Shown in pieces: positions 1,204 to 54,718 of a stretch of 64,000 nt of DNA. This DNA is from Terriglobia bacterium. Its GTDB lineage: Bacteria; Acidobacteriota; Terriglobia; Acidiferrales; UBA7541. Within the stretch, counting starts at the first letter, position 1. Every line of letters starts with the position of its first letter. Where the stretch lies: positions 62,001-126,000 of the forward strand of contig JAIQGG010000002.1 in NCBI GenBank assembly GCA_020072785.1, written 5' to 3'. The notes beneath the pieces are model-generated. The model had not been told where the DNA came from. It saw only the letters and a program-made list of their open reading frames with translations, and ran no database searches. The position numbers were made by a program, and so were the translations under genes.

Positions 1204-1220
1204 TGACCGCGAAGCGGTCA
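1204..1220. repeat. Dispersed palindromic element, copy 1 (arsR-arsM gap)
   Basis: Exact core TGACCGCGAAGCGGTCA, a 7-base-pair stem with a GAA loop, flanked by GTATGCG on the left and AC on the right. It lies between arsR and arsM, 20 bases before the arsM start, so it is transcribed with the operon. Confidence 0.9.
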
Positions 1221-1236
1221 ACTTGCAAGAAAATTC

Positions 1237-1256
1237 CCGCCCTCTGAAGAGGGCGG
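1237..1256. other. Perfect hairpin in arsR-arsM spacer
   Basis: CCGCCCTC and GAGGGCGG are separated by TGAA, giving an 8-base-pair stem with a four-base loop. There is no T-run after it on the minus strand, so it is not an obvious terminator. Together with the palindrome at 1204-1220 it makes the arsR-arsM spacer highly structured, which could set the ratio of regulator to enzyme (inference). Confidence 0.55.
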
Positions 1257-1262
1257 CTACAG

Positions 1263-1604
1263 TCAGGCCTTCAGGTGCACGATGGCCTCCGGGGCTACGG
1301 CGCGGCTGCGCGTGCAGCACTCGTCGTAGAGAAACCCGAGCAATTCGCGCAGGGCGCCGGTTTCCGCGGCATACCACAAGAACTGGCGGTCGCGCTGCAC
1401 CGTGATCAGTCCCACCTGCTTCAGTTTTTCCAGGTGATGGGAGAGGGTCGAAGCGGGGATGCCCAGCTCTTCCTGAATGTCTCCGGCACAGAGGCCCCCG
1501 GGGTGCGCGGCCAGCAGAGCGCGGACGATCTGCAAACGCGGGGCGGCGCCGAGAGCGGCAAAGCGCTGAGCAGTGCGGGAAACGAGAAGGGGATCGGGCT
1601 TCAT
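1263..1604 (-). CDS. arsR: ArsR-family metalloid-responsive repressor
   Basis: Winged-helix repressor of 113 residues when started at MKPDPLL (ATG 1602-1604); longer in-frame readings add sequence with no family likeness. The helix-turn-helix is [21 protein letters not shown], residues 43-62. The classical ELCVCDL arsenic site is absent (the equivalent stretch reads GLCAGDI). Instead there is a Cys pair at residues 96-97 (YDECCTRS), the position used by the Acidithiobacillus ferrooxidans type of ArsR, which carries its site near the C-terminus. It leads the operon arsR-arsM-arsC and probably represses it. Confidence 0.88.
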
Positions 1605-1607
1605 TGC

Positions 1608-1627
1608 ATTTCGATAGTTGCAGAAAT
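1608..1627 (-). promoter_or_regulatory. arsR: Possible ArsR operator
   Basis: ATTTC and GAAAT form a short imperfect dyad separated by ten bases, immediately upstream of the arsR start. Position fits an autoregulatory operator, but the dyad is short and could be chance. Confidence 0.25.
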
Positions 1628-1756
1628 AGGGAAATAACGCAAGGCTTTTTTTCGCAAGTCTCCGGTGGCCCTCTTGCCGCTCGGGGAACTGTTTTTCAGT
1701 TGGTTTTTGACCGTGTCCGGCCTGCATGGGATAATTCCTAGTTTGAGGCGCAAGAG

Positions 1757-3883
1757 ATGAACCTACTTCGTGGCTTTACCGGCAAGCTGATGATGGCGGC
1801 GCTGGGGGTTTCGGCGGCCGGGCTGTCGCTGTGCGGGCAGCAGGCGCCCGCGGCCGCAGCGGCGCCAGTGTTCGCGGCGGCCGGTGCCGGGCCGAGCCAG
1901 CCGCAGGGTGCGGTGAGCGGAGCGAGCCGCGCCGACGCCTACTACAATTACATGATGGGGCACATCGCGGAACTGCGGTACGAGTCCACGAGCCAGACGG
2001 AGTATGCAACGCAGGCGCTGGAATATTACAAGCGGGCCTACGCGCTCGATCCCGGGACACCGGTGATCGGGGAACGCCTGGCGGAGATGTACTGGAAGGC
2101 GCAACGGGTGCCCGACGCGGTGCGCGAAGCGACGGAGATCCTGCGGCGCAATCCGGACGATCTGGCGGCGCGGCGGCTGTTGGCGCGCATTTACTTGCTG
2201 AGCCTGGGGGACCTGAACGCGGTTTCGGGGCAGCCGGAAGCGCTGCAGCAAGCGGCGGAGCAGTATCGGGAAATTCTGCGCCTGGACCCGGCGGACCTGG
2301 AATCGGCGCTGTGGCTGGCGCGGCTCTACCGGCTGCAAAACGCCAACGAGAAGGCCGAAGAGGTGCTGCGCGGGATCCTGAAGCGGGAGCCGGAGAACGA
2401 AGCTGCGGTGGAGCAGCTGACGCAACTGTTGAGCGATGAAGGGCGGTCGGAAGAGGCGGCCAAGCTGCTGGAAGGGCTGACAGGACAGTCGCCGTCGCCG
2501 GCGATGCTGGACCTGCTGGGCGACACGTACACGCAGATGCGCGAGCTGGGCAAGGCCGAGCGGGCCTTCCGCAAGGCCGCCGAGCTGGAGCCGGCGGAAC
2601 TGGGGCATCTGCGCGGCCTGGGGCAAACGCTGCTGGCGGAGGAAAAGTACAAGGAAGCGCTGGGAGTGTACCAGCGGCTGGCGGAGGCGGAGCCGGAAAA
2701 TGCGGAGGTCTTTCTGCGGCTGGGGCAGATCTACCGCGAGCTGCACCAGTTGGAGGAGGCGGAAAACAGCCTGGTGAAGGCGCGGCAGAAGGCTCCGGGC
2801 AACATCGAGGTGCTGTACAACGAGGCGCTGTTGTATGAAGCGCAGGGGCGTTATGAAGACGCCATCCGGGTATTGTCGGATACCGCGGCGGGGATGAAGG
2901 GCCAGGCGGATACGGTGCCTTCGATCCGGCGCACGCTGGCCATCCTGTACCAGCAGCTGGGGCAGCTCTACCGCGAGGTGCAGAACTACCAGGCGGCCAT
3001 TTACAGCTTCGAAGAGATGCAGCGAATGGGCGAGAACGAGGATCGCCGCGCGCGGCTGCTGATGATCGACACGTGGCGGGCGGCGAAAAACATGCCGCGG
3101 GCGCTGGAGGAAGCGAAGAAGGCGCTGGAGAAGTATCCGAACGATCCAGGGATCCGCGCCAGCCAGGCGCTGCTGCTGGGGGAAAGCGGGCAGGTGGAGC
3201 GGGCGGTGGAGATCCTGCGCAGCCAGCTGACGCACACGGCAGCGGACCGCGACACGTATTTGAATATGGCGCAGATCTACGAGCGGGCGCGGCGCTTCCC
3301 GGAAGCGGAGAAGACGGCCCGGCTGGCGGAAGCGCTGCCGGGCGGGGCGCGCGAGAACGAGATGGCGTGGTTTCTGCTGGGGGCGATCTACGAGCGGCAG
3401 AAGCAGTTTGACCGGGCGGAGACGGAATTCAAGAAGGCGCTGGCGGTGAATCCGCGCAACGCTTCGGTGCTGAACTATTACGGGTACATGCTGGGGGACC
3501 TGGGGCTGCGGCTGGACGAGGCGCACGCGCTGGTGGAGCGGGCGCTGGCCGAAGAGCCGTACAACGGGGCGTATCTGGACAGCCTGGGCTGGATCTATTT
3601 CAAGCAAAACAAGATGGCCGAGGCGGAGACCACACTGCGCAAGGCGCTGCAGCGGGAAAGCGTGGACCCCACGATTCACAGCCATCTCGGCGACGTCTAT
3701 TTCCACACCGGGCGCAAGGAGCTGGCCGCGGCGGAATGGGAAAAGGCGCTGGCGGAGTGGCGCCGCGCGCTGCCTTCGGAACTGGAAGCGGAAAAATTCG
3801 CGGAGCTGGAAAAGAAACTGGAACAGGTGAAACACCGCATCGCGGCGCAGAAGCCCGCGGGCGAAAGCGCCAAGCCGCAATAG
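1757..3883 (+). CDS. Secreted or periplasmic tetratricopeptide-repeat protein
   Basis: A 708-residue protein with an N-terminal signal sequence (residues about 1-33, hydrophobic core AALGVSAAGLSLCG) and then tandem 34-residue TPR units from about residue 58 to 690, for example LGQIYRELHQLEEAENSL and LGWIYFKQNKMAEAETTL. The C-terminus is a charged helix rich in Glu and Lys. TPR arrays are protein-interaction scaffolds; the partner is unknown. It ends five bases before ispE. A TPR gene in this position upstream of ispE is also known in Pseudomonas, where lolB lies between them; here lolB is missing. The Cys at the end of the signal core lacks a good lipobox, so lipoprotein status is uncertain. 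Confidence 0.85.
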   Translation: MNLLRGFTGKLMMAALGVSAAGLSLCGQQAPAAAAAPVFAAAGAGPSQPQGAVSGASRADAYYNYMMGHIAELRYESTSQTEYATQALEYYKRAYALDPGTPVIGERLAEMYWKAQRVPDAVREATEILRRNPDDLAARRLLARIYLLSLGDLNAVSGQPEALQQAAEQYREILRLDPADLESALWLARLYRLQNANEKAEEVLRGILKREPENEAAVEQLTQLLSDEGRSEEAAKLLEGLTGQSPSPAMLDLLGDTYTQMRELGKAERAFRKAAELEPAELGHLRGLGQTLLAEEKYKEALGVYQRLAEAEPENAEVFLRLGQIYRELHQLEEAENSLVKARQKAPGNIEVLYNEALLYEAQGRYEDAIRVLSDTAAGMKGQADTVPSIRRTLAILYQQLGQLYREVQNYQAAIYSFEEMQRMGENEDRRARLLMIDTWRAAKNMPRALEEAKKALEKYPNDPGIRASQALLLGESGQVERAVEILRSQLTHTAADRDTYLNMAQIYERARRFPEAEKTARLAEALPGGARENEMAWFLLGAIYERQKQFDRAETEFKKALAVNPRNASVLNYYGYMLGDLGLRLDEAHALVERALAEEPYNGAYLDSLGWIYFKQNKMAEAETTLRKALQRESVDPTIHSHLGDVYFHTGRKELAAAEWEKALAEWRRALPSELEAEKFAELEKKLEQVKHRIAAQKPAGESAKPQ

Positions 3884-3888
3884 CCACC

Positions 3889-4785
3889 ATGCGCGAAGTT
3901 CGCATTCCCGCGTTCGCCAAAATCAATCTGCGCCTGGAGATCTTCGGGAAGCGTCCCGACGGCTATCACGAGTTGCGCACGATTTTTCAGAGCGTTTCGC
4001 TGCACGACGAGCTGCGGCTGCGCGCGGCGCCGCGGCCGGGGATCACGCTGAGGATCCGCGGCAACGAAGCGCTAGCGAGCGAGCCGGTGGAAGGCAACCT
4101 GGTGTACCGGGCCGTCCGGGCGCTGCAGGAAGAGTTGCGGCTGCGTGGCGGAGTGGAGATCGAGCTGCACAAGATGATCCCCGCCGGGGGCGGGCTGGGA
4201 GGCGGGTCGAGCGACGCGGCGGCGGCGCTGGCGGGCTACCTGCGCTTGACGAGGCGGACGCTGCCGCTGCCGCGGCTGATGGAGCTGGGGGCGAGCCTGG
4301 GGGCGGACGTGCCGTTCTTTCTGCTCGGGGGGCGGGCGCTGGGAGTGAACCGCGGGGATGAAATCTATCCGCTGGAAGACGGGCCGCGGCAGACAGTGCT
4401 AATCGTGGTGCCGCGGGGCATCCGAGTGCCCACGGCGGACGCCTACCGCTGGCTGGCCGCTCCCGCGTTGACAAAATCCGCGGCAACCCCTAAACTTTGG
4501 AGGTTCTGTGCTCTCTCCTGGAGCGCGCAGGGAACGGGCCTGGTAAACGATTTCGAGCGGGCCATTTTCCGGCGCATCCCCCGGCTTGGGAAGATCAAGC
4601 GGGCCTTGCTTCGCGAAGGAGCCGCAGAAGCCTTGCTGGCGGGTAGCGGTTCGGCGGTGTTTGGAGTATTCCCGAGCCCAGCCAAGGCGCGCCGAGCCGT
4701 TTGCGGGTTTCCGAACGACCAGACGTTTGTCTGCGAGACTCTCTCCCGAGAGAGGTATCTGCGGGCGCTGAAACGTCCCGTTTGA
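3889..4785 (+). CDS. ispE: 4-diphosphocytidyl-2-C-methyl-D-erythritol kinase
   Basis: GHMP-family kinase that phosphorylates CDP-methylerythritol in the MEP pathway to isoprenoids. It has 298 residues, the usual length. It opens with IPAFAKINLRLEIFGKRPDGYHEL, which holds the conserved Lys and the substrate-binding DGYHEL. The glycine-rich ATP loop PAGGGLGGGSSDAAAAL follows, and LLAGSGSAVFG near the C-terminus is the third GHMP motif. The start is the ATG at 3889, five bases after the TPR gene; a longer in-frame reading would run back into that gene. ispD and ispF lie about 10 kb downstream, so this window holds three MEP genes. Confidence 0.96.
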   Translation: MREVRIPAFAKINLRLEIFGKRPDGYHELRTIFQSVSLHDELRLRAAPRPGITLRIRGNEALASEPVEGNLVYRAVRALQEELRLRGGVEIELHKMIPAGGGLGGGSSDAAAALAGYLRLTRRTLPLPRLMELGASLGADVPFFLLGGRALGVNRGDEIYPLEDGPRQTVLIVVPRGIRVPTADAYRWLAAPALTKSAATPKLWRFCALSWSAQGTGLVNDFERAIFRRIPRLGKIKRALLREGAAEALLAGSGSAVFGVFPSPAKARRAVCGFPNDQTFVCETLSRERYLRALKRPV

Positions 4786-4827
4786 GCCGCGGCGGTCACT
4801 CTGCGTCATTCCCGACAGTGGTATGTG

Positions 4828-4898
4828 TGGCCGCGAAGCGGTCAAGAGTGTGCGTGACCGCGAAGCGGTCAAGAGTATGTGTGACCGCGAAGCGGTCA
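4828..4898. repeat. Three tandem palindromic elements, 27-base period (upstream of prs)
   Basis: Cores at 4828-4844 (first stem base pair changed, TGGCCGC), 4855-4871 and 4882-4898, each starting exactly 27 bases after the last. All three face the same way. Because 27 is a multiple of three, the array stays open in the prs reading frame. Confidence 0.92.
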
Positions 4899-4948
4899 AC
4901 CCAAGCCGTAATTCAGCCGCCACAAGCGGATACTGGAGCGAGTGCGCC

Positions 4949-5893
4949 GTGAACGACGAGCGATTCAAGATTTTTTCGGGGACCGCAAACCGGCCGCTGG
5001 CCGAGAACATCTGCCGGAATTTTGGCATGCCGCTGGGCCGGCAGGTCCTGGGGAAGTTCAGCGACGGCGAGATTTATTTCCAGATTCTGGAGAACGTGCG
5101 CGGGGCGGATGTCTTCGTGGTGCAGCCGTGCAGCAATCCGGTGGATTACCACCTGATGGAGCTGCTGCTGATGATCGACGCGTTCAAGCGCGCGTCGGCG
5201 TGGCGCATCACGGCGGTGATCCCGTACTACTGCTACGCACGGCAGGACCGCAAGGACAAGCCGCGGGTGCCGATCTCCGCGAAGCTGGTGGCCGACCTGC
5301 TGGAGACGGCGGGGGCCAGCCGGGCGCTGACGCTGGACCTGCACGCGCCGCAGATTCAGGGATATTTCACGGTGCCGGTGGACCACCTGTATGCATCGCC
5401 GGTGCTGGTGGAATACTTCCGGAACAAGAATTTGCCGAACCTGACGGTGGTTTCGCCGGATGCGGGCGGGGTGGAACGGGCGCGGTTCTTCGCGAAGAAG
5501 GTGGATGCGCCGCTGGCGATCGTGGACAAGCGCCGCGTGGACGTGGATGTCAGTGAAGTGATGCACCTGATCGGCGATGTGCGCGGGCGCAGCGCGCTGA
5601 TCGTGGACGACATCATAGATACGGCGGGAACGCTGGTGAAGACCGCCGAGGCGCTGATGAAGGAAGGCGCGACGCAGGTCTACGCCGCGTGCACGCACGC
5701 GGTGCTTTCGGGGCCGGCGGTGGAGCGCATTGCGAAGTCGCAGATCAGCGAAGTGGTGGCGACGGATTCCGTGCCGCTCACGCTGGGGGGCAGCGCGCTT
5801 TCGAAGATCAAGGTGCTGAGCATCGCGGATCTGCTGGCGCGCGGCATCCGCTCGATCCACGAAGAGACCTCGATCAGCGAGTTGTTTATCTAG
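4949..5893 (+). CDS. prs: Ribose-phosphate pyrophosphokinase
   Basis: Makes PRPP from ribose 5-phosphate and ATP for purine, pyrimidine, His and Trp synthesis. With the GTG start at 4949 it has 314 residues, the normal length, and begins at the expected FKIFSGTANRPLAENI. Visible motifs are YYCYARQDRKDKPR (ATP-binding flexible region), DLHAPQIQGYF (metal and ATP site) and IVDDIIDTAGTL (PRPP loop). The frame is open upstream to an ATG at 4823, but those 42 extra codons are the tandem palindromes and resemble no Prs; GGAG lies about ten bases before the GTG. Neighbour order ispE-prs-rplY-pth is conserved in many bacteria. Confidence 0.96.
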   Translation: MNDERFKIFSGTANRPLAENICRNFGMPLGRQVLGKFSDGEIYFQILENVRGADVFVVQPCSNPVDYHLMELLLMIDAFKRASAWRITAVIPYYCYARQDRKDKPRVPISAKLVADLLETAGASRALTLDLHAPQIQGYFTVPVDHLYASPVLVEYFRNKNLPNLTVVSPDAGGVERARFFAKKVDAPLAIVDKRRVDVDVSEVMHLIGDVRGRSALIVDDIIDTAGTLVKTAEALMKEGATQVYAACTHAVLSGPAVERIAKSQISEVVATDSVPLTLGGSALSKIKVLSIADLLARGIRSIHEETSISELFI

Positions 5894-6042
5894 GGTTTTT
5901 CCGTCATGGCGAGGGCCGGGACGACGTCACGGTCCGAAGGTTTCAACCGGACAAGCGGCCGGTGGGGCAGACGCGGAGAACCTTCGCCCCGGGGAAATGG
6001 GCCGGGCCTCCGGATGACAGATGAAGGAAGGACAGGGACGGT

Positions 6043-6741
6043 ATGGCACAGATTATCGTGGAAGGAACACCCCGCGCGAGCCGGGGAAAGAACGAAGCCA
6101 AGCGGCTGCGCCTGACGGGACAGGTCCCCGCCGTGCTGTATGGCGGCAAGGGGGGAGCGGTGCCGCTGGCGGTGAACACCAAGCAGCTGCTGGCGATTTT
6201 CCGCTCCGAGTCGGGACATAACACGCTATTTCAGGTGAGCTACGAAGGGCAGCAGCAGCCGGCGATCCTGAAGGACTGGCTGGTGGACCCGCTAAGCGGG
6301 AACCTGCTGCACGTGGACCTGCTGCGCGTGGCCATGGACGTGCGCATGCGCGTGCGCGTTCCGGTGCACACCTTCGGCGAGCCGGCGGGCGTGAAGCAGC
6401 AGGGCGGCATCTTCGAGACGGTGACGCGGGAAGTGGAAATCGAATGCTTGCCCGCGGACATTCCGACGGAGTTCCGCATGGACGTGAGCGAGCTGCTGCT
6501 GGGCAAGCAGTTGCGGGCCTCGGAGATTCCTCTGGATGCGGCGAAGATGAAGCTGCTGACGGAGCCGGAGCGCATCATCGCGCACGTGGTGGCCCTGCGC
6601 GTCGAGGAAGAGAAGCCCGCAGAGGCCGTGGCAGCGGAAGCGGCGGCGCCGGCAGAGCCCGAAGTCATCAAGAAGGGCAAGAAGGAAGTGGAAGGCGAGG
6701 AAGGCGAAGAGGCCGCCGCCAAGCCGGAGAAGAAGAAGTAA
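6043..6741 (+). CDS. rplY: 50S ribosomal protein L25, long CTC form
   Basis: 5S rRNA-binding ribosomal protein. It has 232 residues, so it is the two-domain TL5/CTC form rather than the short E. coli type. The N-terminal RNA-binding domain (residues 1-95, with LRLTGQVPAVLYGG) is followed by the beta-rich CTC domain (HTFGEPAGVKQQGGIFE, residues about 107-123). An acidic and lysine-rich tail fills the last 40 residues. It starts with an ATG preceded by GAAGGAAGGACAGGGACGGT and is followed after 21 bases by pth, a very common pairing. Confidence 0.95.
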   Translation: MAQIIVEGTPRASRGKNEAKRLRLTGQVPAVLYGGKGGAVPLAVNTKQLLAIFRSESGHNTLFQVSYEGQQQPAILKDWLVDPLSGNLLHVDLLRVAMDVRMRVRVPVHTFGEPAGVKQQGGIFETVTREVEIECLPADIPTEFRMDVSELLLGKQLRASEIPLDAAKMKLLTEPERIIAHVVALRVEEEKPAEAVAAEAAAPAEPEVIKKGKKEVEGEEGEEAAAKPEKKK

Positions 6742-6762
6742 CGCGGCGGAGAGTGGTGCGCG

Positions 6763-7356
6763 ATGCGGCTCATTGTGGGGCTTGGGAATCCCGGCCCGGA
6801 GTATCAGTGGACGCCGCATAACCTCGGCTTTCTGGCGGTGGACGAGCTGGCCAATCGCGGAGGGATCCGCGTGGAGCGGCCGGAGGGCAAGGCGCTGGCC
6901 GGGCGCGGGAAGCTGGCCGGCGAAGAGATCGTGCTGGCGAAACCGCTGACGATGATGAATCTGAGCGGCATCGCGGTGCGGGAACTACTCGGGAAGTACG
7001 AGCTACAGCCGAAGGATCTGCTGCTGCTCTACGACGATGTGGCGCTGGCCTGGGGCACGATACGCATCCGGGAGCGGGGCAGCGCCGGCGGGCACAACGG
7101 GATGAAGTCGGTGATCGGGACCCTGGGCACGGACGAATTCAGCCGCGTGCGCCTGGGGGTGCAGCCGGATCACCCGGTGGGGGACCTGGCGGTGTACGTG
7201 CTGCGGCCGATGAAGAAGGCGCAGCTGGAAGAAGCGGCGACGATGATCGAGGAAGCCGCCGACGCCGTGGAGCTGATTCTGCGAGAAGGCGTGGCCGTGG
7301 CCATGAACCGCTTCAACCGCCGCAATCCGGCGGCGGAAGACGAGGCCGAGGCGTGA
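6763..7356 (+). CDS. pth: Peptidyl-tRNA hydrolase
   Basis: Releases tRNA from prematurely dropped peptidyl-tRNA. The protein has 197 residues. The N-terminus LIVGLGNPGPEYQWTPHNLG contains the catalytic His in the PHNLG context, although the usual Arg before that His is Pro here. The Asn in MMNLSG and the Asp in LLLYDDVAL match the substrate-contacting positions, and GSAGGHNGMKS is the family signature. It lies between rplY and the rpsF-rpsR-rplI group; two inverted copies of the palindromic element fill the gap after it. Confidence 0.95.
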   Translation: MRLIVGLGNPGPEYQWTPHNLGFLAVDELANRGGIRVERPEGKALAGRGKLAGEEIVLAKPLTMMNLSGIAVRELLGKYELQPKDLLLLYDDVALAWGTIRIRERGSAGGHNGMKSVIGTLGTDEFSRVRLGVQPDHPVGDLAVYVLRPMKKAQLEEAATMIEEAADAVELILREGVAVAMNRFNRRNPAAEDEAEA

Positions 7357-7365
7357 CGCAAACGT

Positions 7366-7409
7366 TAACCGCTTAGCGGTCACACTTGCGGTTGACCGCT
7401 GGGCGGTCA
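7366..7409. repeat. Two tandem palindromic elements, 27-base period (pth-rpsF gap)
   Basis: Cores at 7366-7382 (TAACCGCTTAGCGGTCA, one stem mismatch) and 7393-7409 (TGACCGCTGGGCGGTCA), in the reverse orientation relative to the copies at 1204 and 4828. The spacing is again exactly 27 bases. The loops differ (TTA and TGG) while the stems are kept. Confidence 0.88.
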
Positions 7410-7467
7410 CACCAGCGAAGAACGAGTTTCCCGGGCCCCGCGCCCGGAGAAGGAAACAGAGGGGAAT

Positions 7468-7863: not shown

Positions 7864-7873
7864 GCTTCCGCGT

Positions 7874-7917
7874 TGACCGCTTCGCGGTCACGCAAACGGT
7901 GGACCGCTTTGGGGTCA
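7874..7917. repeat. Two tandem palindromic elements, 27-base period (rpsF-rpsR gap)
   Basis: Cores at 7874-7890 (TGACCGCTTCGCGGTCA, perfect) and 7901-7917 (GGACCGCTTTGGGGTCA, decayed), reverse orientation, spaced exactly 27 bases. They occupy most of the gap between rpsF and rpsR. Confidence 0.88.
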
Positions 7918-7974
7918 TCCAGGCGACGGAAAAATTTCCTGACGAGATTCGCGAGACGAGAAAGGTAGGACGGT

Positions 7975-8475: not shown

Positions 8476-8537
8476 AACGCGCCGAGTGCGCGCATAACAG
8501 GCGACCCCGTGGGGCGCGAATAGCGGAGGAAGGGTTC

Positions 8538-8984: not shown

Positions 8985-9031
8985 GCGGGCGGCGTTTGCC
9001 GGACAGCTCGCAGAAATAACATTTGTATGAG

Positions 9032-9048
9032 TGACCGCGAAGCGGTCA
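9032..9048. repeat. Dispersed palindromic element (rplI-dnaB gap)
   Basis: Perfect core TGACCGCGAAGCGGTCA, forward orientation, flanked on the left by TTGTATGAG as at copy 1. It lies in the 304-base gap between rplI and dnaB, directly before a terminator-like hairpin. Confidence 0.9.
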
Positions 9049-9050
9049 GC

Positions 9051-16366: not shown

Positions 16367-16392
16367 CCATACCAAGGATTTCAGCAAAAAAA

Positions 16393-22942: not shown

Positions 22943-22973
22943 TCTTGCACCCGCACGCCCTCAGGCTCATGCA

Positions 22974-23025
22974 CGACCGCGAAGCGGTCGATGTTTGGAT
23001 CCCCAGTGTGGCCGCCGCGCGGTCA
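22974..23025. repeat. Two palindromic elements, irregular spacing
   Basis: Cores at 22974-22990 (CGACCGCGAAGCGGTCG, compensatory change of the outer pair from T-A to C-G) and 23009-23025 (TGGCCGCCGCGCGGTCA). They are 35 rather than 27 bases apart. The compensated outer base pair at the first copy suggests that stem pairing matters. Confidence 0.8.
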
Positions 23026-23251
23026 CTTGTACTTCCCCCATGACCGCAGCTATGGAGCGGAGCGCTAACATGGCATTCCCAGGGAAAAGCGTCAATCTGG
23101 TAAAAATGTGCGAAGTGTCTTAAAATCAACTGCTTGGTTCCAGTACCAGCCTGCCTATGTAGAACTCTTTCCGGGCTCCGCTTTGGCCTCCAATATGGTT
23201 CTCGACAGGTTGGCCCTCTGCCCCTACTTTAACTGCAGGGCGGGCCCGACC

Positions 23252-39839: not shown

Positions 39840-40436
39840 TCACTTGCGGCCGCGATTTTTTCCACGGCGCGTGCTCTTCTGTTGTATGCGTGACCGCGAA
39901 GCGGTCAACGCGCCGCCGGCCGCCAAAGCCGGCAGGTTGCGCCCCAAGCCATTGGGCGCGGGCAGACCGTACCCCACCCATACTTGATTAGATGCAGTTC
40001 GGAAGCCAAAGTAATCCGGCTCCAGGCTGACGTGGCGCCGCGCCGGCTTGTCCAGAAGCACGGCCAGGCGCAACGAGCGGGGCCGGCTTTCGCCCAGGCG
40101 GCGCAGGAGAAATTCCTGGGTCACGCCGCTTTCGATCACCACATCCACCAGCAGGACGTCCCGGCCGCGGAGGTCGGGCCGCTTGCCGAAGAAAACTTCG
40201 CGCAGGGGGCGGTTATTGTGCCTGACGTCGCGCACGTCCGCGGAAACAAAGTGACAGGTCACCGGCCCGGGCAGGTGGCGGACGAGATCGGCGGCAAAAA
40301 TGAAGCCGCGGTCCATGGTGATGACCACGTCCAAGCGGCGGCCGCGGTAGTCCCTGTGAATGGCTTTGCCCAGGGCGGCCACCTGTTTGGCGATGCGTGG
40401 CGCGGAATAGCCCGCGCGCGAACGGCTGCTCAGCAT
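39840..40436 (-). CDS. hpt: Hypoxanthine phosphoribosyltransferase with a repeat-derived C-terminal tail
   Basis: Purine salvage enzyme converting hypoxanthine or guanine with PRPP to IMP or GMP. It has 198 residues with the start at 40436 (MLSSRSRAGYSAPRIAKQVAALG). The substrate region is VVITMDRGFIFAADLVRHL, the PRPP loop VLLVDVVIESGVTQEFLL, and the end of the normal fold is WVGYGLPAPNGLGRNLPALA near residue 170. About 25 further residues follow, starting [11 protein letters not shown]; these codons come from a palindromic element at 39891-39907. The gene overlaps the end of tilS by seven bases and precedes ftsH. An upstream start would be inside tilS and is not supported. Confidence 0.9.
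   Translation of the reverse strand: MLSSRSRAGYSAPRIAKQVAALGKAIHRDYRGRRLDVVITMDRGFIFAADLVRHLPGPVTCHFVSADVRDVRHNNRPLREVFFGKRPDLRGRDVLLVDVVIESGVTQEFLLRRLGESRPRSLRLAVLLDKPARRHVSLEPDYFGFRTASNQVWVGYGLPAPNGLGRNLPALAAGGALTASRSRIQQKSTRRGKNRGRK
39891..39907. repeat. Palindromic element inside the 3' end of hpt
   Basis: Perfect core TGACCGCGAAGCGGTCA with the common GTATGCG left flank. It supplies codons for the extra C-terminal residues of the hpt product (read on the minus strand as [11 protein letters not shown]). Confidence 0.9.
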
Positions 40437-41986
40437 GATTCCTCGGCGATTACGATCCCAACCTGGGTACGTGCATCCGGTGCGAATTCTGCGGCGACCG
40501 GAAAGCCGCGGACCCACGCGATCGCTCCGCCGCTCGTCAGGACCGGCCAGCCCTCGCGTGCCCACCGGCTGATGCGCTTTTCCAGGAACAGGCGCTTCAG
40601 TTTGTGCGGCTGCTGGTGGCCCGCGGGGCGAAAGGCATCCCCGGGCCGCCAGTTCCGCAAAAGGAGTGGTTCACGGAGCCGGTTGCGGTCCAACACCGCC
40701 GCTACCTCCCTAGTTTCTCCCCTCTGCGCAGGCCAGTCAATCACCGTGAGATGGAAGACGCGGTGCAGTTGCGGCACGGTCACGGTGGCGCCGCCCGCTC
40801 CGAGATGCACCGGATAGGCAAATTCCAGCGCCGCCGGGCCAGCAGCGGACGCCACGGAGGGCCCGCGGAGCACGATGGCGTCCAGATCGCGCCGCGCTTC
40901 CACGCCGCCCGGCAGCTGCAGTACGTTGCCGCTGGGGCCGTGTTCGGCCAGACGCAAGAGCGCTTCGAGGTGCTGCGCAGTGAGCTGGCCGGGGCGCTGC
41001 TTCACGCTCTCGACGATGCGCCGCAGCAGGCGCTTGCTCAGCGCCCGCGCCGTCGCTGCTCTTTCTTTCTCCGTGATCCCGGCGCCTTCTGCATGCGTGA
41101 CCGCGAGGCGGTCAACGGTGTCGAGTCCTTTTTCTTTCTTCCACGGCAGCAGCAGATCCGCGGTGCGGATGCGCACCGCATTCTCTTCGCGCTGGGCTAG
41201 CGCCGCCATGCGCTCCGCCGCCAGGGCTTCGAGGAAGGCCTCGTCCTCGCGGGCGCGCTCCGCCAGGGCGGTCAGGTGCGCGACGACGGCGGGCTGGAAT
41301 TTCCGCTCCAGCAGCGGCAGCAGCTTGCGGCGAATGCGCGCGCGCAGGCGCGTCAGGTCCAGATTGGTGACGTCCTCGCGCCAGCGCTGTTTGCGCGCCC
41401 GCAGATAGGCGCGCAGCTCCGCGCGGCGCAGCTCGAGCAGCGGGCGCACCACGTGGCCCACCACCGGATGGATGCCGCCGAGGCCGGCCAGTCCCGTGCC
41501 GCGCAGGATGTGCGCCAGGACGGTCTCCGCCTGGTCGTCGGCGGTGTGGGCCACGGCGACGCGCTCGGCGTGGCCCTCCTGCACCAGGCGCACGAAGAAT
41601 TCGTAGCGCAGGCGCCGCGCCGCGTCTTCGAGATTGCCGCGCCGCCGCCGGGCCTCCGCGGCCACGTCCGCGCGGTGCACGTGAAAGGGAAGCGCGCGGG
41701 CCGCGGCGAGGCGGGCCACGAACTTTTCGTCCGCGTCGGAAGCCTTGCCGCGCAGCTGGTGATTGAAGTGCGCGACGCTGAGCACGATGCCCAGCCGCTC
41801 GCGCAGCTCTTCGAGCAGGAGCAGGAGGGCCACGGAATCGGCGCCGCCGGAAACGGCCACGGCGACGCGGTCGCCGGGGCGCAGCATCTCCCGGCGCTGG
41901 AGCGCGTGCAGCACGCGGCGCACCAGGTCGTTGCGCCCGGGGCTTTCGGTGCGCGCGCGTTTCGGCGATGGCTTTTTCGGGGGCAT
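40430..41986 (-). CDS. tilS: tRNA(Ile)-lysidine synthase with an in-frame palindrome insertion
   Basis: Modifies the CAU anticodon of tRNA-Ile. The PP-loop ATP-binding motif is VAVAVSGGADSVALLL (SGGADS, residues 46-51). Other N-terminal-domain motifs are SVAHFNHQLRG and VAVAHTADDQAETVL. A TilS C-terminal domain follows, ending near GDAFRPAGHQQPHKLKRLFLE. The length is 518, longer than most. Part of the excess is a linker at residues about 285-305 where LDTVDRLAVTHAEG is read from a palindromic element at 41098-41114. hpt and ftsH follow in the conserved order, hpt overlapping the end of tilS. Confidence 0.93.
   Translation of the reverse strand: MPPKKPSPKRARTESPGRNDLVRRVLHALQRREMLRPGDRVAVAVSGGADSVALLLLLEELRERLGIVLSVAHFNHQLRGKASDADEKFVARLAAARALPFHVHRADVAAEARRRRGNLEDAARRLRYEFFVRLVQEGHAERVAVAHTADDQAETVLAHILRGTGLAGLGGIHPVVGHVVRPLLELRRAELRAYLRARKQRWREDVTNLDLTRLRARIRRKLLPLLERKFQPAVVAHLTALAERAREDEAFLEALAAERMAALAQREENAVRIRTADLLLPWKKEKGLDTVDRLAVTHAEGAGITEKERAATARALSKRLLRRIVESVKQRPGQLTAQHLEALLRLAEHGPSGNVLQLPGGVEARRDLDAIVLRGPSVASAAGPAALEFAYPVHLGAGGATVTVPQLHRVFHLTVIDWPAQRGETREVAAVLDRNRLREPLLLRNWRPGDAFRPAGHQQPHKLKRLFLEKRISRWAREGWPVLTSGGAIAWVRGFPVAAEFAPDARTQVGIVIAEESC
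41098..41114. repeat. Palindromic element inside tilS
   Basis: Core TGACCGCGAGGCGGTCA (loop GAG) with a GCATGCG flank. It lies inside the coding region of tilS, read in frame as VDRLAVTHA, with no stop or frameshift. Confidence 0.9.
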
Positions 41987-46964: not shown

Positions 46965-46974
46965 TGATTATATG

Positions 46975-46991
46975 TGACCGCGAAGCGGTCT
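46975..46991. repeat. Palindromic element upstream of the 16S region
   Basis: Core TGACCGCGAAGCGGTCT (last base changed) ten bases upstream of the small Tat-signal gene (minus strand). Confidence 0.8.
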
Positions 46992-46992
46992 A

Positions 46993-47071
46993 CCTCCGGG
47001 CTGGCTTTTTCCGGAGGGACATGCTAACATGTCCAAGTTGGCTATGCGTCTTGCGGAAAGCTGTAAGACGC
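46993..47071. other. Cluster of three hairpins upstream of the 16S promoter
   Basis: Three separate perfect stems of seven pairs: CCTCCGG with CCGGAGG (46993-46999 and 47011-47017), GGACATG with CATGTCC (47017-47034, loop CTAA), and GCGTCTT with AAGACGC (47046-47052 and 47065-47071). No gene is seen here. It belongs to the 392-base gap between the Tat-signal gene and the 16S gene. Confidence 0.5.
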
Positions 47072-47233: not shown

Positions 47234-47298
47234 TTCGAAACCATTCGGCTTTTCGAGCCCGAATGGTCTGAGTAGTAAATCGAGCGATCAACAATTTG

Positions 47299-47347
47299 CT
47301 TGGACAGGCTGGCTCCGGTGCAAACCGGAGTTTTTTATTTGTCCAGG
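47299..47347 (+). other. rrs: Terminator-like hairpin in the 16S leader
   Basis: CTCCGGT (47313-47319) and ACCGGAG (47324-47330) with loop GCAA, followed by TTTTTTATTT. An outer helix TGGACA (47301-47306) with TGTCCA (47340-47345) encloses the hairpin and its T-run. This looks like an intrinsic terminator placed only about 20 bases before the mature 16S 5' end. Confidence 0.6.
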
Positions 47348-47356
47348 CGACAGGTT

Positions 47357-48895
<1,539 letters not shown>

Positions 48896-49056
48896 TAAAG
48901 AAAACGGCATGTACTTCCCGTGCAGGTGTGCGGGATTTGTACGGCCCACTTCCCAGACAAGCTTGCTTGTTTGGGAGGGCTGCTCCAGGCTCTCACGGGT
49001 CTGCGGCAGGCTCGTTTTACTCTCTACTCGCGGCGCGCAAGCGCTGCGGGTTCGGG

Positions 49057-49088
49057 CGGATTCTGGCAGATCGTATCGGTCAAAGAGC
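49057..49088 (+). other. rrs: Downstream arm of the 16S processing stem
   Basis: CGGATTCTGGCAGATCGTATCGGTCAAAGAGC (reported by position) is the reverse complement of 47199-47233 apart from a two-base gap and one mismatch. With it the 16S RNA would be looped out of a stem of about 30 pairs. The rest of the 591-base gap 48896-49486 holds no gene I can support. Confidence 0.85.
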
Positions 49089-49108
49089 ACTCAACGTATC
49101 GAGTTTCC

Positions 49109-49138
49109 AGGGCGGACTTCCAGTCCGCCCTTTTTTTT
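49109..49138 (+). terminator. rrs: Intrinsic terminator 1 after 16S
   Basis: AGGGCGGACT and AGTCCGCCCT form a perfect ten-pair stem with loop TCC, followed by eight T (49131-49138). It lies 21 bases after the processing stem and ends the 16S-only transcript. Confidence 0.95.
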
Positions 49139-49164
49139 GCGCAGACAATTCGGGAGAATGGAAA

Positions 49165-49194
49165 AGGGCCGCTGAGAACTCAGCGGCCCTTTTT
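49165..49194 (+). terminator. rrs: Intrinsic terminator 2 after 16S
   Basis: AGGGCCGCTGAG and CTCAGCGGCCCT form a twelve-pair stem followed by TTTTT. A second, backup terminator in tandem with the one at 49109. Confidence 0.92.
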
Positions 49195-49486
49195 GCGCGC
49201 GGCGGTGCCCGCCCCGATTTCCTTTACATCTTCAGCGTATTGGGCGTGAACTGACCATATGCGCCTGTCTGCCTGCGCATGGCGCCCGTCAGAAAGCTCC
49301 GGGATTCGGCCGCTGCGTTCCGCGAGATGCAGAGTGCGACCGGATGAGCGGGTCGCACCCGCAAACTTGCACGAAAAGTGTTGAACGGAGCCGGAAAAGT
49401 GCGAGAATGGCCCGGAAGCGCCCGCCAGGGGTGCTTGCCACGCTAGACGCCCTGCAGAGAATACCCGTACAACGCGAGGAGGCATC

Positions 49487-50818
49487 ATGGACCAAGCCCT
49501 CGACGTGCACCGCCTGCACTTCGCATTCACGGTCACGTTCCACTACATCTTCCCGCAACTGACCATGGGGCTGGCGCTGTTGCTGGTCTATCTGAAGACC
49601 AAGGCGCTGCGCACCAACGATGAGCACTATAACCGCGCGGCGCGTTTCTGGGCGCGAATATTCGGCATCAATTTTGCGCTGGGCGTGGTGACGGGCATCC
49701 CCATGGAATTTCAGTTTGGCACCAACTGGGCGGAATTTTCGAAAAGCGCCGGCGGGGTCATCGGGCAGACGCTGGCGATGGAAGGCGTCTTTTCCTTTTT
49801 CCTGGAGTCCAGTTTTCTCGGACTGTTTTTATTCGGGGAGAAGAAACTCGGCCGGGTGGGGCATTGGTGGGCGGCCTTTCTGGTGTGGCTGGGATCATGG
49901 CTCTCCGGGTATCTGATCGTGGCCACCGATGCATGGATGCAGCATCCGACGGGGTACACACTGGGGCCGGAGGGCCAGTTTCAGCTCGCCAGCTTTTGGG
50001 AATTGGTGGTGAACAAGTGGGCGCTGTGGCAGTACGCGCACAACATGGTGGGCGCGGTGCAGACCGGGTGCTTCGTGATGGCCGCGGTCGGTGCGTTCTA
50101 TCTGCTGACCAGCCGGCATGAGCAGTATGCGCGGACGTTCGTGAAAACGGGCGTACTGGTCGGCGCGGTCGCCGCCGTGCTGCAGATCTTCCCGACGGGG
50201 GACATGCAGGGCCGGATGATTGCCAAGCACCAGCCGCCGACGCTGGCGGCCATGGAAGGGCTGTTCGTCTCCGAGCAGGGCGCGCCGCTGGTGATTCTGG
50301 GCCAGCCGGACGTGCAGAAGCGCCGCCTGGACAACCCGTTGGTCGTGCCCAGGGCGCTAAGCTTTCTCACCTATCAAAACTGGAGCGCGAACGTGAAGGG
50401 GCTGGACAGCTTTCCGGAGGAGCAGTGGCCGGACAAGATTCCCCTGCTCTATTACAGCTATCACGTCATGGCCGGGCTCGGAACGATCTTCCTTGCGGTG
50501 ATGGCGATTGCCGCGTGGCTGCTATGGCGCGGCACCCTGTACACCTCCCGCGCCATGCTCTGGACGCTGCTGCTTTGCGCACCGCTGCCGTACATCGCCA
50601 ATACCGCCGGGTGGATGACGGCGGAGCTGGGCCGCCAGCCCTGGCTGATCTACGGCTTGATGCACACGGCGAAGGGCATCTCGCCGCGGGTGGCCGCGGG
50701 GAATGCGTGGTTCACGCTGCTGGGGTTCATGGGAATGTACGCGGTGCTGACGATCCTGTGGCTGTTTCTCGTCCACCACGAGATCGAGCGCGGGCCGGAA
50801 CTGACCGTAGCGGAGTGA
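49487..50818 (+). CDS. cydA: Cytochrome bd ubiquinol oxidase subunit I
   Basis: Quinol oxidase subunit that holds the haems. The protein has 443 residues and many membrane helices. The N-terminal HFAFTVTFHYIFPQLTMG contains His19, the haem ligand position known in E. coli. The GRQPW motif is present near residue 386 (AELGRQPWLIYG), as is FPTGDMQGRMIAKHQPPTLAAMEG. At 443 residues it lacks the long Q-loop insertion of the E. coli enzyme, so it belongs to the short-loop group that includes cyanide-insensitive oxidases. Start codon ATG with GAGGAGG upstream. cydB follows after 12 bases. Confidence 0.94.
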   Translation: MDQALDVHRLHFAFTVTFHYIFPQLTMGLALLLVYLKTKALRTNDEHYNRAARFWARIFGINFALGVVTGIPMEFQFGTNWAEFSKSAGGVIGQTLAMEGVFSFFLESSFLGLFLFGEKKLGRVGHWWAAFLVWLGSWLSGYLIVATDAWMQHPTGYTLGPEGQFQLASFWELVVNKWALWQYAHNMVGAVQTGCFVMAAVGAFYLLTSRHEQYARTFVKTGVLVGAVAAVLQIFPTGDMQGRMIAKHQPPTLAAMEGLFVSEQGAPLVILGQPDVQKRRLDNPLVVPRALSFLTYQNWSANVKGLDSFPEEQWPDKIPLLYYSYHVMAGLGTIFLAVMAIAAWLLWRGTLYTSRAMLWTLLLCAPLPYIANTAGWMTAELGRQPWLIYGLMHTAKGISPRVAAGNAWFTLLGFMGMYAVLTILWLFLVHHEIERGPELTVAE

Positions 50819-50830
50819 GGAGGAGCCGAA

Positions 50831-51883
50831 ATGGAAACGATCTGGTTCTGCCTCGTCGCGATCATGATCGCGATGTACGTGCTGCTCGACGGATTCGACC
50901 TGGGAGCGGGCGCGATTCACCTGCTGGTGGCCAAGACGGACGCCGAACGGCGGCAGGTGCTCGCGAGCATTGCCCCGGTGTGGGACGGCAACGAAGTGTG
51001 GCTATTGGCCGCGGGTGGGGTTCTGTACTTCGCCTTTCCCGCGTTGTATGCCTCGGGTTTCAGCGGATTCTACCTGCCGTTGATGATCGTGCTGTGGCTG
51101 CTGATTCTGCGCGGGAGCGCCATCGAATTCCGCAACCACATTGAGAGCGCCGTGTGGGCCCCGCTGTGGGATTTCCTGTTCTGCGCCGCGAGCCTGCTGC
51201 TGGCCGTGTTCTACGGGGCGGCCCTCGGCAACGTCGTGCGCGGCGTGCCCCTGGATGGGAGCGGGTACTTTTTCGAGCCGCTGTGGACGAATTTCCGGCT
51301 GGGCGAGGAGACCGGGATCCTGGACTGGTACACGATCCTGGTCGGCGTGCTGGCGCTGGCCGCGCTGGTGATGCACGGCGGGCTGTGGGTGCAGTGGAAA
51401 ACGGCGGGCGTGGTGAACCGGCGCGCGGGCCGCGCCGCGGGACAGGCGTGGTGGGCGGTGATTGCCCTGACGGCACTCGTGACGGCGTTGACCTTGCGCG
51501 TGCAGCCACAAGTGGCCCTGAATTTCCGGACCTGGCCATGGGGCTATCTCCTGCCGCTGCTGGCGGTGGCGGGTCTGGCCGGCGTGGGCTGGAACCTGGT
51601 GAGGAAGAAGGAGCGCATGGCGTTCTTTTCCTCGTGCCTGTACCTCGTGGGGATGCTGACGAGCGTAGTCTTCGGGGTGTACCCGATGGTGCTGCCGGCG
51701 CGGAATCCGGTGTATGCCCTGACGATTGCGAGCGCCAAAGCAGGCGCCTACGGCCTGAAGATCGGGCTGGTTTGGTGGATCATCGGGATGATCCTGACGG
51801 CCGGATATTTCACATTCGTGTACCGGTCGTTTGCCGGAAAGATCGAGGCCGAAGAGAAGTTACAGGATTCTTGGGGCGAATGA
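50831..51883 (+). CDS. cydB: Cytochrome bd ubiquinol oxidase subunit II
   Basis: Partner of CydA in the terminal oxidase; it has 350 residues and about eight membrane helices. The start IWFCLVAIMIAMYVLLDGFDLGAGA is the family signature. APVWDGNEVWLLAAGGVLYFAFPALYA follows, then FRNHIESAVWAPLWDFLF. It starts 12 bases after cydA with GAGGAGGAGCCG upstream, one operon. No cydX or cydDC is next to it. A tRNA-like T-arm in the gap after it was examined and rejected. Confidence 0.94.
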   Translation: METIWFCLVAIMIAMYVLLDGFDLGAGAIHLLVAKTDAERRQVLASIAPVWDGNEVWLLAAGGVLYFAFPALYASGFSGFYLPLMIVLWLLILRGSAIEFRNHIESAVWAPLWDFLFCAASLLLAVFYGAALGNVVRGVPLDGSGYFFEPLWTNFRLGEETGILDWYTILVGVLALAALVMHGGLWVQWKTAGVVNRRAGRAAGQAWWAVIALTALVTALTLRVQPQVALNFRTWPWGYLLPLLAVAGLAGVGWNLVRKKERMAFFSSCLYLVGMLTSVVFGVYPMVLPARNPVYALTIASAKAGAYGLKIGLVWWIIGMILTAGYFTFVYRSFAGKIEAEEKLQDSWGE

Positions 51884-52171
51884 GCCGGGCCAGCGCGGGT
51901 GGGGCGCGAAGCGCAAGCAGCGAGGCTTCCCCGCGGCAACGGTTTTGAGGCAGGGGTTCGACTCCGCCACGTGCCAAGTGCGAAACACAGGTACGGCGGC
52001 GGCATTGACCAACCGAAAAGCAGGTGCGTAAGGTGCAAGAAGGGAGCTCGGGTGTGCGCCGAGCCCGAGTGGGGCGATGTGTCGCTGGTACACCGCGCAA
52101 GACGCCTGAGGGATTGAGACAGAAAAAAGAGGAAGAGCCAGCGGGGATTTCTCCTTCCTGCTGAATTGCTG

Positions 52172-54445
52172 ATGGGGACGCCGAACAAAGCCGGGCGGTA
52201 TGAAATCATGGGCGAACTGGGCCGCGGCGCCATGGGTGTCGTCTATAAGGCCCTGGACCCGGTGATCGGGCGCACCGTGGCGGTCAAGACTATCCGCCTC
52301 TCGGCGGAAGGTTCAGGGCTGTCGCGGCCCGAGATGTTGCAGCGCTTCCAGACGGAAGCGCGCGCCGCAGGCCTGCTCACGCACCCCAACATCGTGGTGG
52401 TCTATGATGCGGGCGAAGAAGACGGCCTGTACTACATCACCATGGAACTGGTGGAGGGCAAGAGCCTGCAGGCCCTGCTGGAATCCGGGCAGCGGTTCCC
52501 GCTGGCGCGGGTGCTGCGCATCCTGGAGCAGACCTGCTCGGCGCTGCAGTTCGCGCACGAGCGCAACGTCGTGCACCGCGACATCAAGCCCGCCAACCTG
52601 ATGATGACCGCGGACGACACCGTGAAGGTGACGGACTTCGGCACCGCCAAGATCCTTCAGTTCGGCAGCACCCAGCAGACCGCGCACGTCATGGGCACGC
52701 CCAGCTACATGTCCCCGGAACAGGTGAAGGGCAAGGCTGTGGACGGGCGCTCGGACATCTTTTCGCTGGGCGTAATGTTCTACGAGATGATGACCGGGGA
52801 AAAGCCCTTTCCGGGGCAGAACATCACCACGGTCATTTACAAAATCGTGAATGAGGAGCCCCAGCCGCCGCGGCAGATTGATCCTTCCATTCATCCCGGG
52901 ATCGACGCGGTGATCCTGAAGGCTCTGACCAAAGATCCCAACGCCCGCTACCAGAGTTGCTACGAGATGCTCGAGGATTTGCGCAACTACCGCTCGGTCG
53001 GCGGCAGTGCGGAATCCACCATGGTCCTGAGCGCTGCTCCGGCAGCCGGTGGCCATCGAGCCCCGCGTGCCGCCGCCCCGCCGCCCCGAGCGCCTGCGCC
53101 CCCGGCGGCCGTCCAGCCGCTGCGCCTGCGCCCGGATCCCAGCCCGGCGAGCGCCGCGAGTCCGGCGCCAACGCCTGCCGTGCACCGCGCGGCGCCGGCC
53201 GAGCCTCCGCAAAAGTCCAAGAGCATGCTGGGAACGATGCTCGCCGCGCTGTTTCTTCTCGGCGTGATCATCTTCGGCAGCTACCGTGTGCGCCCGTTCT
53301 TCGAGGACCTGATGCAACGGCGTGAAGCGCAGCGCGCGGAAGGGAAGAATCCGGCCGTGGCTGTCACGCCGCCAGTACCCGTGGAGGACCCATCCACGGA
53401 GAAGGAAGCGAGTTTGCCAGCGCCTCTTCCTGCAAGCCCAGGCACCGGCGCTGTCGAGACGAAGCCCGTGGAGAGTCCGGCAGCGAGCGCGCCGCTGAAG
53501 AGACCCGGGAGTCCCCTGAGCCCCGGGGCCGCAGAATTCAAGGGGCGTATGGAAGAAGTCATCGCGCAAAGGGGTTTAACCGGCCGCGTGAAACTGGGCG
53601 GCACCGGGAACACCCTGACACTGACCGGGCGGTTGCGCCCGAGCGAGCATCGCGATCTCCTGGAGAGCCTGCGCTCTGCGCCGAAAAGCGTGCAGATCGT
53701 GGACGATGTCAACTACGACGACATAGCGGAGAGCGCGCCGGGATCGGAAGCCGCCGGCGAGCATCCCGTTCCGCTCACCGGGCGCGGCGCGATTCACGTG
53801 GTGACGGATGTAATCGGGGCCACGGCGACCTTGCGCGGGGCCGCGGGGATCCTGGTCAGCAATTGCCAGACGCCGTGCAGCTTCAACAATCTGCCCCCGG
53901 CGCCCTACCTCCTGGAGGTCAACAAGGACGGCTACCAGGCGGTCCGCGCGAATCTGCAGGTGCGTCCCAGGGCCGTGATTGACAAGAAGTTCGCGCTCGA
54001 ATCGCTGGTGCAGGGAATCTATGTGCGCAGCCAGCCCCCGGGCGCGGATGTGTTCGTCAATGGCCAGAAACAACCCGGGAAAACACCCCTGAAACTGCCC
54101 ATCGCTCCGGGCCAGTACGATCTCGTCGTGAGCCTGGAAGGCTATGAGCGCCATTCCGAACAGGTGCAGCTCAAGGACAACATTCAGACACAATTGGATG
54201 TCACGCTCACGCAGCGCTCCTACCATCCAGCCTGGGTCAACGTGGAAACCCGCCCGCCCGGCGCGGAGATCCTGATCGACGGTAAGCCCACCGGCAAATT
54301 TGCCCCCGCGCGCGTCGAGATGACCGCAGGAGCCCATTGGGTATCTTTCGCTCTGAACGGCTATCGCCCCAGCAAGAAGTTCGTGGGCGTGCAAGAAGGG
54401 CAGACCGTGGAGGTCAGCGCCGAGCTCGAGCGAAAGTTCCGGTAA
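52172..54445 (+). CDS. Transmembrane Ser/Thr protein kinase with BON-like and PEGA sensor region
   Basis: A 757-residue membrane kinase. The kinase domain spans about residues 10-275: Gly-loop GELGRGAMG, Lys39, HRDIKPANL (135-143), TDFGTAK (DFG 155-157) and MGTPSYMSPEQ. A Pro/Ala-rich linker (about 285-350) leads to one membrane helix (352-370). The outside part has a BON-like segment (RVKLGGTGNTLTLTGRL, about residues 465-510) and PEGA-type repeats in the last 220 residues (PPGADVFVNGQ, RPPGAEILIDGKPTGK). PEGA domains bind cell-wall or surface structures. ATG at 52172; a TTG two codons earlier is possible. Confidence 0.93.
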   Translation: MGTPNKAGRYEIMGELGRGAMGVVYKALDPVIGRTVAVKTIRLSAEGSGLSRPEMLQRFQTEARAAGLLTHPNIVVVYDAGEEDGLYYITMELVEGKSLQALLESGQRFPLARVLRILEQTCSALQFAHERNVVHRDIKPANLMMTADDTVKVTDFGTAKILQFGSTQQTAHVMGTPSYMSPEQVKGKAVDGRSDIFSLGVMFYEMMTGEKPFPGQNITTVIYKIVNEEPQPPRQIDPSIHPGIDAVILKALTKDPNARYQSCYEMLEDLRNYRSVGGSAESTMVLSAAPAAGGHRAPRAAAPPPRAPAPPAAVQPLRLRPDPSPASAASPAPTPAVHRAAPAEPPQKSKSMLGTMLAALFLLGVIIFGSYRVRPFFEDLMQRREAQRAEGKNPAVAVTPPVPVEDPSTEKEASLPAPLPASPGTGAVETKPVESPAASAPLKRPGSPLSPGAAEFKGRMEEVIAQRGLTGRVKLGGTGNTLTLTGRLRPSEHRDLLESLRSAPKSVQIVDDVNYDDIAESAPGSEAAGEHPVPLTGRGAIHVVTDVIGATATLRGAAGILVSNCQTPCSFNNLPPAPYLLEVNKDGYQAVRANLQVRPRAVIDKKFALESLVQGIYVRSQPPGADVFVNGQKQPGKTPLKLPIAPGQYDLVVSLEGYERHSEQVQLKDNIQTQLDVTLTQRSYHPAWVNVETRPPGAEILIDGKPTGKFAPARVEMTAGAHWVSFALNGYRPSKKFVGVQEGQTVEVSAELERKFR

Positions 54446-54535
54446 GTATCCCTCCCCCACCCCCAGAACCTGCCCAAGTAGCACCCGACAGGTATCACTT
54501 AGGAACAGGCATCCCAGCATAGTTCTAGTACTTGC

Positions 54536-54541
54536 TATACT
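54536..54541 (+). promoter_or_regulatory. Possible extended -10 promoter
   Basis: TGCTATACT (TG, one base, then TATACT) in the 365-base gap 54446-54810, about 270 bases before the next gene. No convincing -35. Apart from this and the repeat at 54702 the gap looks empty. Confidence 0.35.
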
Positions 54542-54701
54542 GCTTGGTGTAGGCAAAGGATTTATCCGTATTTCTCTACGGATGGTCAATTGCTCTATTT
54601 GCTTAGCGCGAGTCCTCTGTTTGTTCCGCAGCAGATTTGCTGACGGAGGGGTCCTCGCAGGCTTTCCAGGCCGGGGCCTGAGAAGCAGCAAGAAGGGAAG
54701 T

Positions 54702-54718
54702 TGACCGCGTGGCGGTCA
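54702..54718. repeat. Palindromic element upstream of the large PilZ protein gene
   Basis: Core TGACCGCGTGGCGGTCA (loop GTG), reverse orientation by its flanks. The stem is kept; the loop differs from the usual GAA. Confidence 0.88.

Follow-up and report, generated by a model that had tools for sequence, protein, structure and literature searches.

A palindromic element found repeatedly in the genome of a soil-dwelling Terriglobia (gp2) bacterium (assembly GCA_020072785.1, here G000; 11 contigs, 3.73 Mb) appears, from comparison with related species, to be a polarised unit of exactly 27 bp that is gained and lost whole. The DNA under study is a 64,000-nucleotide stretch of this genome, called the window, at positions 62,001-126,000 of contig JAIQGG010000002.1 (C2:62001-126000). 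We interpret the element, as the most probable of several readings, as a non-autonomous mobile hairpin of 27 nucleotides: whole units would turn over, insert behind a target motif near WCNTY, build arrays by targeting their own ends and be moved by a Y1/HUH-type enzyme acting in trans. The comparison species, G007, is ~90% identical to G000 and is syntenic with it over parts of the window and of contig C1.

Exact matches to the core pattern TGACCGCNNNGCGGTCA number 210 in the whole G000 assembly, against none for the same pattern reversed as a control; G000 holds at least 210 copies of the 27-base unit. The core is thus in clear excess in the genome, and its flanks are shared rather than random, which supports a preliminary description of the element as dispersed, REP-like (repetitive extragenic palindromic) and present in both orientations. 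All 15 cores listed there for the window were found, eight as exact TGACCGCNNNGCGGTCA and the rest with one or two changes. In the DNA sampled for the analysis of flanks, context and 12-mers (704 kb of G000 and 624 kb of G007), the 12-mers of the element are the most abundant of all. Among congeners, G007 has 187 exact copies, G005 has 85 and all others have 14 or fewer, so that counts within the genus are very uneven and strong expansion is confined to a few species; none of 25 sampled relatives outside the genus has an exact copy. Across 396 sampled genomes of the phylum, GTGACCGCRAAGCGGTCA matched in only two others. G276, a member of a distant family with 12 strand-specific matches, was considered as a relative and rejected: there the core lies inside a different, longer repeat that lacks the 27-bp unit, and the likeness is therefore convergent. 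This longer dispersed repeat (..GTGACCGCGAAGCGGTCACAGACGATAGCCGGGGG.., loci L112-L119) often lies near contig ends.

When the flanks, or the loop alone, are used to set the orientation of copies, the unit reads TNTATGYG-TGACCGC-GAA-GCGGTCA-AC. Numbered from the start of the core, it runs from -8 to +18 and consists of a foot (TNTATGYG, -8 to -1), a 7-bp stem, a 3-nt loop and a terminal AC, with 8 bp on one side of the palindrome and 2 on the other. The expectation that the real unit would exceed the core was therefore borne out by the flank alignment; the loops, described earlier as variable (GAA, TTA, TGG, GAG, GTG), prove in flank-oriented copies to be chiefly GAA or AAA when read on one strand, TTC and TTT being the other strand. 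Folding computations return the expected hairpin for the 27-mer as single-stranded DNA and predict a stable RNA hairpin for both strands. At its centre lies GCGAAGC, a classic extraordinarily stable DNA mini-hairpin; mini-hairpins of this kind have been described (PMC10527192).

Stem changes in copies with family flanks comprise 52 that break a pair, 25 that leave a G-T pair and seven double changes that preserve pairing. Of the 16 copies with just two stem changes, about six are compensated, where we estimate ~0.4 by chance. These double changes are moderate evidence of constraint on the hairpin, as copies may share ancestry, and they lend partial support to a constraint first proposed from a compensatory change at 22974. 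That site itself was rejected as evidence, since the core-like palindromes CGACCGCGAAGCGGTCG (22974..22990) and TGGCCGCCGCGCGGTCA (23009..23025) are probably not family members: neither has the family flanks, their spacing is 35 bp instead of 27, and both fall within ~70 bp that is almost invariant between G000 and G007. The region around them (22950-23045) is a divergent intergenic one and may be regulatory.

Filled and empty alleles of G000 and G007 differ by whole units of 27, 54 and 81 bp, in both directions, and no target-site duplication was seen. Present only in G000 are the copies at window 41098 (27 bp), C1:576166 (27 bp) and C1:576750 (54 bp), the array at window 4828 (81 bp) and the copy at window 39891 (27 bp plus a 3-bp indel); present only in G007 are C13:7664 and C64:17247 (27 bp each). 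Four sites differ in array size between G000 and G007: C1:101719 (3/2), C1:583317 (3/1), C1:575035 (1/4) and window 1204 (1/2). Window sites 7366, 7874, 46975 and 54702 are common to both species, and a further ~80 kb of G007 contig C64 yielded no additional comparable sites. The 4828 array is also missing in more distant congeners, which argues for gain rather than loss there, although the intergenic region aligns poorly. Summed over six clean sites, mismatches between the empty allele and each possible cut are fewest at -8, giving the unit -8 to +18. The empty alleles fit this span better than the alternative of -11 to +15, which would place TC at either end.

The bases at -13 to -9, outside the unit, are strongly biased in lead copies towards W, C (85%), N, T and Y. 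The pattern WCNNY precedes 27 of 41 lead copies in G000 and 20 of 24 in G007, where 5-6% is expected (binomial p ~1e-22 or below). At shifted positions there are mostly 0-4 matches; a shift of +3 gives 9 and 5, respectively, since the pentamer then overlaps conserved positions within the unit. Since WCNNY was derived from these two genomes, G005 served as the independent test, and 13 of its 21 lead copies carry the pattern (p ~2e-11); the element-poorer genomes give weak support (8/22). Empty alleles at six sites hold a similar pentamer (TCCTT, TCCTC, TCTTC, ACAGT, CCCTC and TCCGC), which must therefore be a target and not part of the element. By this comparison, insertion appears to occur directly 3' of a pre-existing motif near 5'-WCNTY-3' (5'-[A/T]C-N-T-[T/C]), with one fixed polarity and without target duplication.

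The right end of the unit, TCAAC, itself fits WCNNY. A new copy that uses it would land exactly behind the old one, which accounts for direct arrays with a fixed period: 66 of the 72 neighbour spacings of 150 bp or less are exactly 27 bp, in agreement with the tandem period first noted in the window. All 27-bp neighbours that could be oriented point the same way, and the single opposite-orientation pair has another spacing. Over ten variable positions, 16 of 54 adjacent array pairs are at most 50% identical, where unrelated units average 48%; adjacent units are thus often as different as unrelated ones, and duplication alone did not produce these arrays. Full identity is seen in nine of the 54 pairs, so some arrays have expanded in place, an example being the seven-unit array of G007 contig C106.

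By our own gene calls, 46 of 63 sampled G000 copies are intergenic and 16 lie within genes, though 79% of the DNA is coding. The intergenic copies fall into tandem, divergent and convergent intervals as 27/16/3, close to what the available space predicts (63/29/8%). Insertions in genes stay in frame because 27 bp is nine codons, and the unit is free of stops in four of the six combinations of frame and strand; for these reasons genic insertions are often tolerated as nine-residue peptides. Counted per copy over both genomes, 20 of 28 genic units read VDRFAVT-like (usually VDRFAVTxx) and none is in the phase in which TGA is a stop; either orientation occurs. Protein alignments place the peptide in three settings. 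In TilS it reads VDRLAVTH.. and lies between the PP-loop and C-terminal domains, the G007 orthologue being shorter by exactly nine residues. In a phosphoribosyltransferase, a unit-encoded insertion lies near the C-terminus relative to the G007 orthologue. A TonB-C domain protein (L041 2395-4521; G000 C1:574394-576520) carries insertions at several sites, and at some of these G000 and G007 differ in unit number; its variable linker is a hot spot, with four element sites counted over the two species.

Insertion 3' of a retained target, the lack of duplication, the fixed polarity and the target-like right end together match the rules of IS608, and on these grounds a Y1/HUH mechanism is the best inference. 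IS608 inserts precisely 3' of TTAC and has TCAA as its right cleavage site (PMC5934647). In the mechanism that we propose, the hairpin would fold in single-stranded DNA, where a Y1/HUH-type enzyme (IS200/IS605- or RAYT-like; RAYT, REP-associated tyrosine transposase) acting in trans would cut and join it. The enzyme would use the foot to place its cuts, on the left after WCNTY and on the right after TCAAC. Landing of a new copy behind the TCAAC of an old one would produce the direct 27-bp array, and some arrays would later grow by ordinary tandem duplication.

The source of such an enzyme bears on the nearest alternative, in which the element is a true REP served at a distance by a resident RAYT-like Y1 transposase flanked by terminal inverted repeats (TIRs), and represents a degenerate end of that transposon family. 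Genes with the Pfam Y1_Tnp domain are present in G000 (three, at C2:747410, C1:420614 and C1:581378), G007 (one) and G005 (nine); the window has no transposase-like gene, as had been observed before. The anatomy of the unit (foot, hairpin, short tail) is REP-like, and RAYT-like genes with long TIRs instead of REPs ('TIRYT') are known in Acidobacteria (PMC3733652). The link to a RAYT suggested by the preliminary description nevertheless finds no support in gene context: none of the four Y1_Tnp genes of G000 and G007 has an element beside it. Two of the G000 genes and the sole one detected in G007 are flanked instead by unrelated ~36-bp inverted repeats (CCCCACGTG type), those of G007 being taken from the extent of the match to the G000 locus. 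Their closest homologues are in G012 (84% identity) and G008 (79%), genomes with three and zero elements, respectively. Given the missing flanking elements, the unrelated repeats and a co-occurrence that finds no support, we rejected a RAYT association in its classical form, which seems unlikely on this evidence; service at a distance by a resident transposase is a possibility that we rate as low. The RAYT-like gene at C2:747410 lies between inverted repeats at L121 1461-1496 and 2063-2097 that contain a CACGTG palindrome, and similar repeats occur at its relatives in G000, G012 and G007.

Spread without any dedicated transposase is less probable still. Template switching at hairpins, or repair errors, could copy a palindrome and slippage could build arrays; clear in-place duplications exist (the seven-unit array already mentioned and a four-unit array in G007 contig C64), and hairpin-templated correction could yield the pair-preserving double changes. 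Such processes would not be expected to give a fixed 27-bp unit with fixed polarity and a sequence-specific target at a fixed distance, nor arrays of dissimilar units in perfect register. That the element is a binding site (an operator or a nucleoid-protein site) multiplied because it is useful would suit its perfect 17-bp dyad and the intergenic majority of G000 copies, and is very improbable in view of the presence/absence turnover between close species, the in-frame insertions in coding regions, the direct arrays and an intergenic distribution close to that of the available space. Least credible of all is a role as intrinsic terminator or RNA-stabilising hairpin. The RNA hairpin is stable on both strands, but at the ends of the unit stand AC or TATG-like bases and no T-run, convergent intergenes are not enriched, and genic copies lie in either orientation; context statistics led us to reject both the terminator and the operator role.

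Several observations count against a mobile hairpin moved by a Y1/HUH enzyme in trans. No cognate enzyme was found among the Y1_Tnp genes of G000 and G007: three of these genes have the unrelated inverted repeats described above, and that at C1:420614 has no element within ~1.3 kb. The foot, which would guide cleavage, is only loosely conserved, and cuts next to -8 score only slightly worse, leaving the unit start uncertain by 1-2 bp. Because TCAAC shares bases with the 3' arm of the stem, it could not serve as a cleavage site while paired in the hairpin. Lagging-strand transposition might give an orientation bias, and the absence of a clear one along C1 weighs in the same direction, the count itself being uninformative (by eye, ~14 versus 19 clusters, with a parS-like site as origin marker). 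This parS-like palindrome, of TGTTCCACGTGGAACA type, adjoins one element near C1:113847 and suggests that a replication origin region is nearby.

The copies in the window illustrate the range of contexts. On the forward strand, intergenic units lie at 1196..1222 (core 1204), where G007 has two tandem copies, and at 9024..9050, where G007 lacks 17 bp, a partial and not a clean empty site. The three-unit array that is missing in G007 occupies 4820..4846, 4847..4873 and 4874..4900 (all +) and follows the target ACAGT (4815-4819). Two two-unit arrays on the reverse strand are shared with G007: 7364..7390 with 7391..7417, the latter having a foot and loop unlike those of its neighbour, and 7872..7898 with 7899..7925, the latter being degenerate with two stem changes. 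The unit at 39883..39909 (+) lies within the C-terminal end of the phosphoribosyltransferase gene (39840-40436, -), and its absence from G007 (30 bp, 27 + 3) is in frame. That at 41090..41116 (+) lies within tilS (40430-41986, -), where exactly 27 bp are missing in G007. The remaining two, at 46967..46993 (+) upstream of the 16S rRNA gene and at 54700..54726 (-) in an intergenic region, are also in G007. The full 16S rRNA gene (47357-48894) is apparently unlinked, as no 23S or 5S rRNA (Rfam) and no tRNA was found in the window. Just downstream of it, opposite window ~49195-49302, G007 has ~8.5 kb of extra DNA (C40:20103-28659) that carries one 27-bp element (C40:25925).

Known systems share parts of this picture. 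GTAG REPs and REPINs, with their RAYTs, resemble the element as short (20-40 bp) hairpins with an unpaired 5' foot, high copy number and patchy expansion, mostly intergenic, with arrays and some intragenic copies. They differ in having a GT[AG]G foot 5' of the stem, where the four bases here are TGYG, in forming inverted dimers (REPIN/BIME) rather than direct arrays, and in having a flanking RAYT, which is absent here; the fixed 27-bp unit, defined target and codon-frame-respecting insertions set the present element apart. CGTC REPs and the Rickettsia palindromic elements RPE-4 and RPE-6 likewise have no dedicated transposase nearby and insert in frame into functional proteins, as is known for REP and RPE insertions (PMC3733652). 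Their CGTC foot, 8-9 bp stems, 4-5 nt loops, CCA tails and head-to-head dimers contrast with the TGYG foot, 7-bp stem, 3-nt loop and direct arrays described here. The class 3 TnpA-Y1 hairpins of Solibacter usitatus are also high-copy (~600) atypical hairpins in an acidobacterium (PMC6006769), but have a CnGA foot and a flanking class 3 gene, neither of which was found for this element. With IS200/IS605 elements (IS608, ISDra2) the element shares insertion 3' of a short target that is kept in the left flank, the lack of target duplication, a right-end sequence (TCAA) related to the target, and a hairpin with a 5' foot; it differs in having no transposase gene, one hairpin rather than two, a total of 27 nt and the degenerate target WCNTY. 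Cyanobacterial small dispersed repeats were reportedly given as 21-27 nt long by Elhai et al. in 2008. One account has them at ~20 bp, tandem in places and thought to be mobile (PMC2884548); they belong to another phylum, and the likeness is one of length, tandem arrangement and presumed mobility. The element thus behaves like a REP or a minimal IS200-type element and has neither the GTAG nor the CGTC foot, the REPIN-dimer arrangement nor a flanking RAYT. The novelty lies in an exact unit that is compatible with the codon frame, in a resolved target and in arrays that are self-targeting. Much more tentatively, a self-targeting one-hairpin unit of 27 nt might be among the smallest known, moved by an enzyme that is neither a neighbour nor a classical RAYT, and might, by virtue of its nine-codon length and stop-poor palindrome, act as a natural in-frame inserter of nine-residue peptides (VDRFAVTxx) into essential proteins across the genus.

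REP-like repeats are common, though it is rare for the exact unit and the site of insertion to be worked out. The clean filled and empty alleles of two species ~90% identical establish what the unit is (27 nt), which way it points, where it inserts (WCNTY) and why its arrays are direct, and the spread of transposase-less palindromes becomes a testable question with a short list of candidates. As the in-frame insertions in TilS and further proteins illustrate, a conserved gene can gain a stretch of peptide from such a repeat and not be disrupted.

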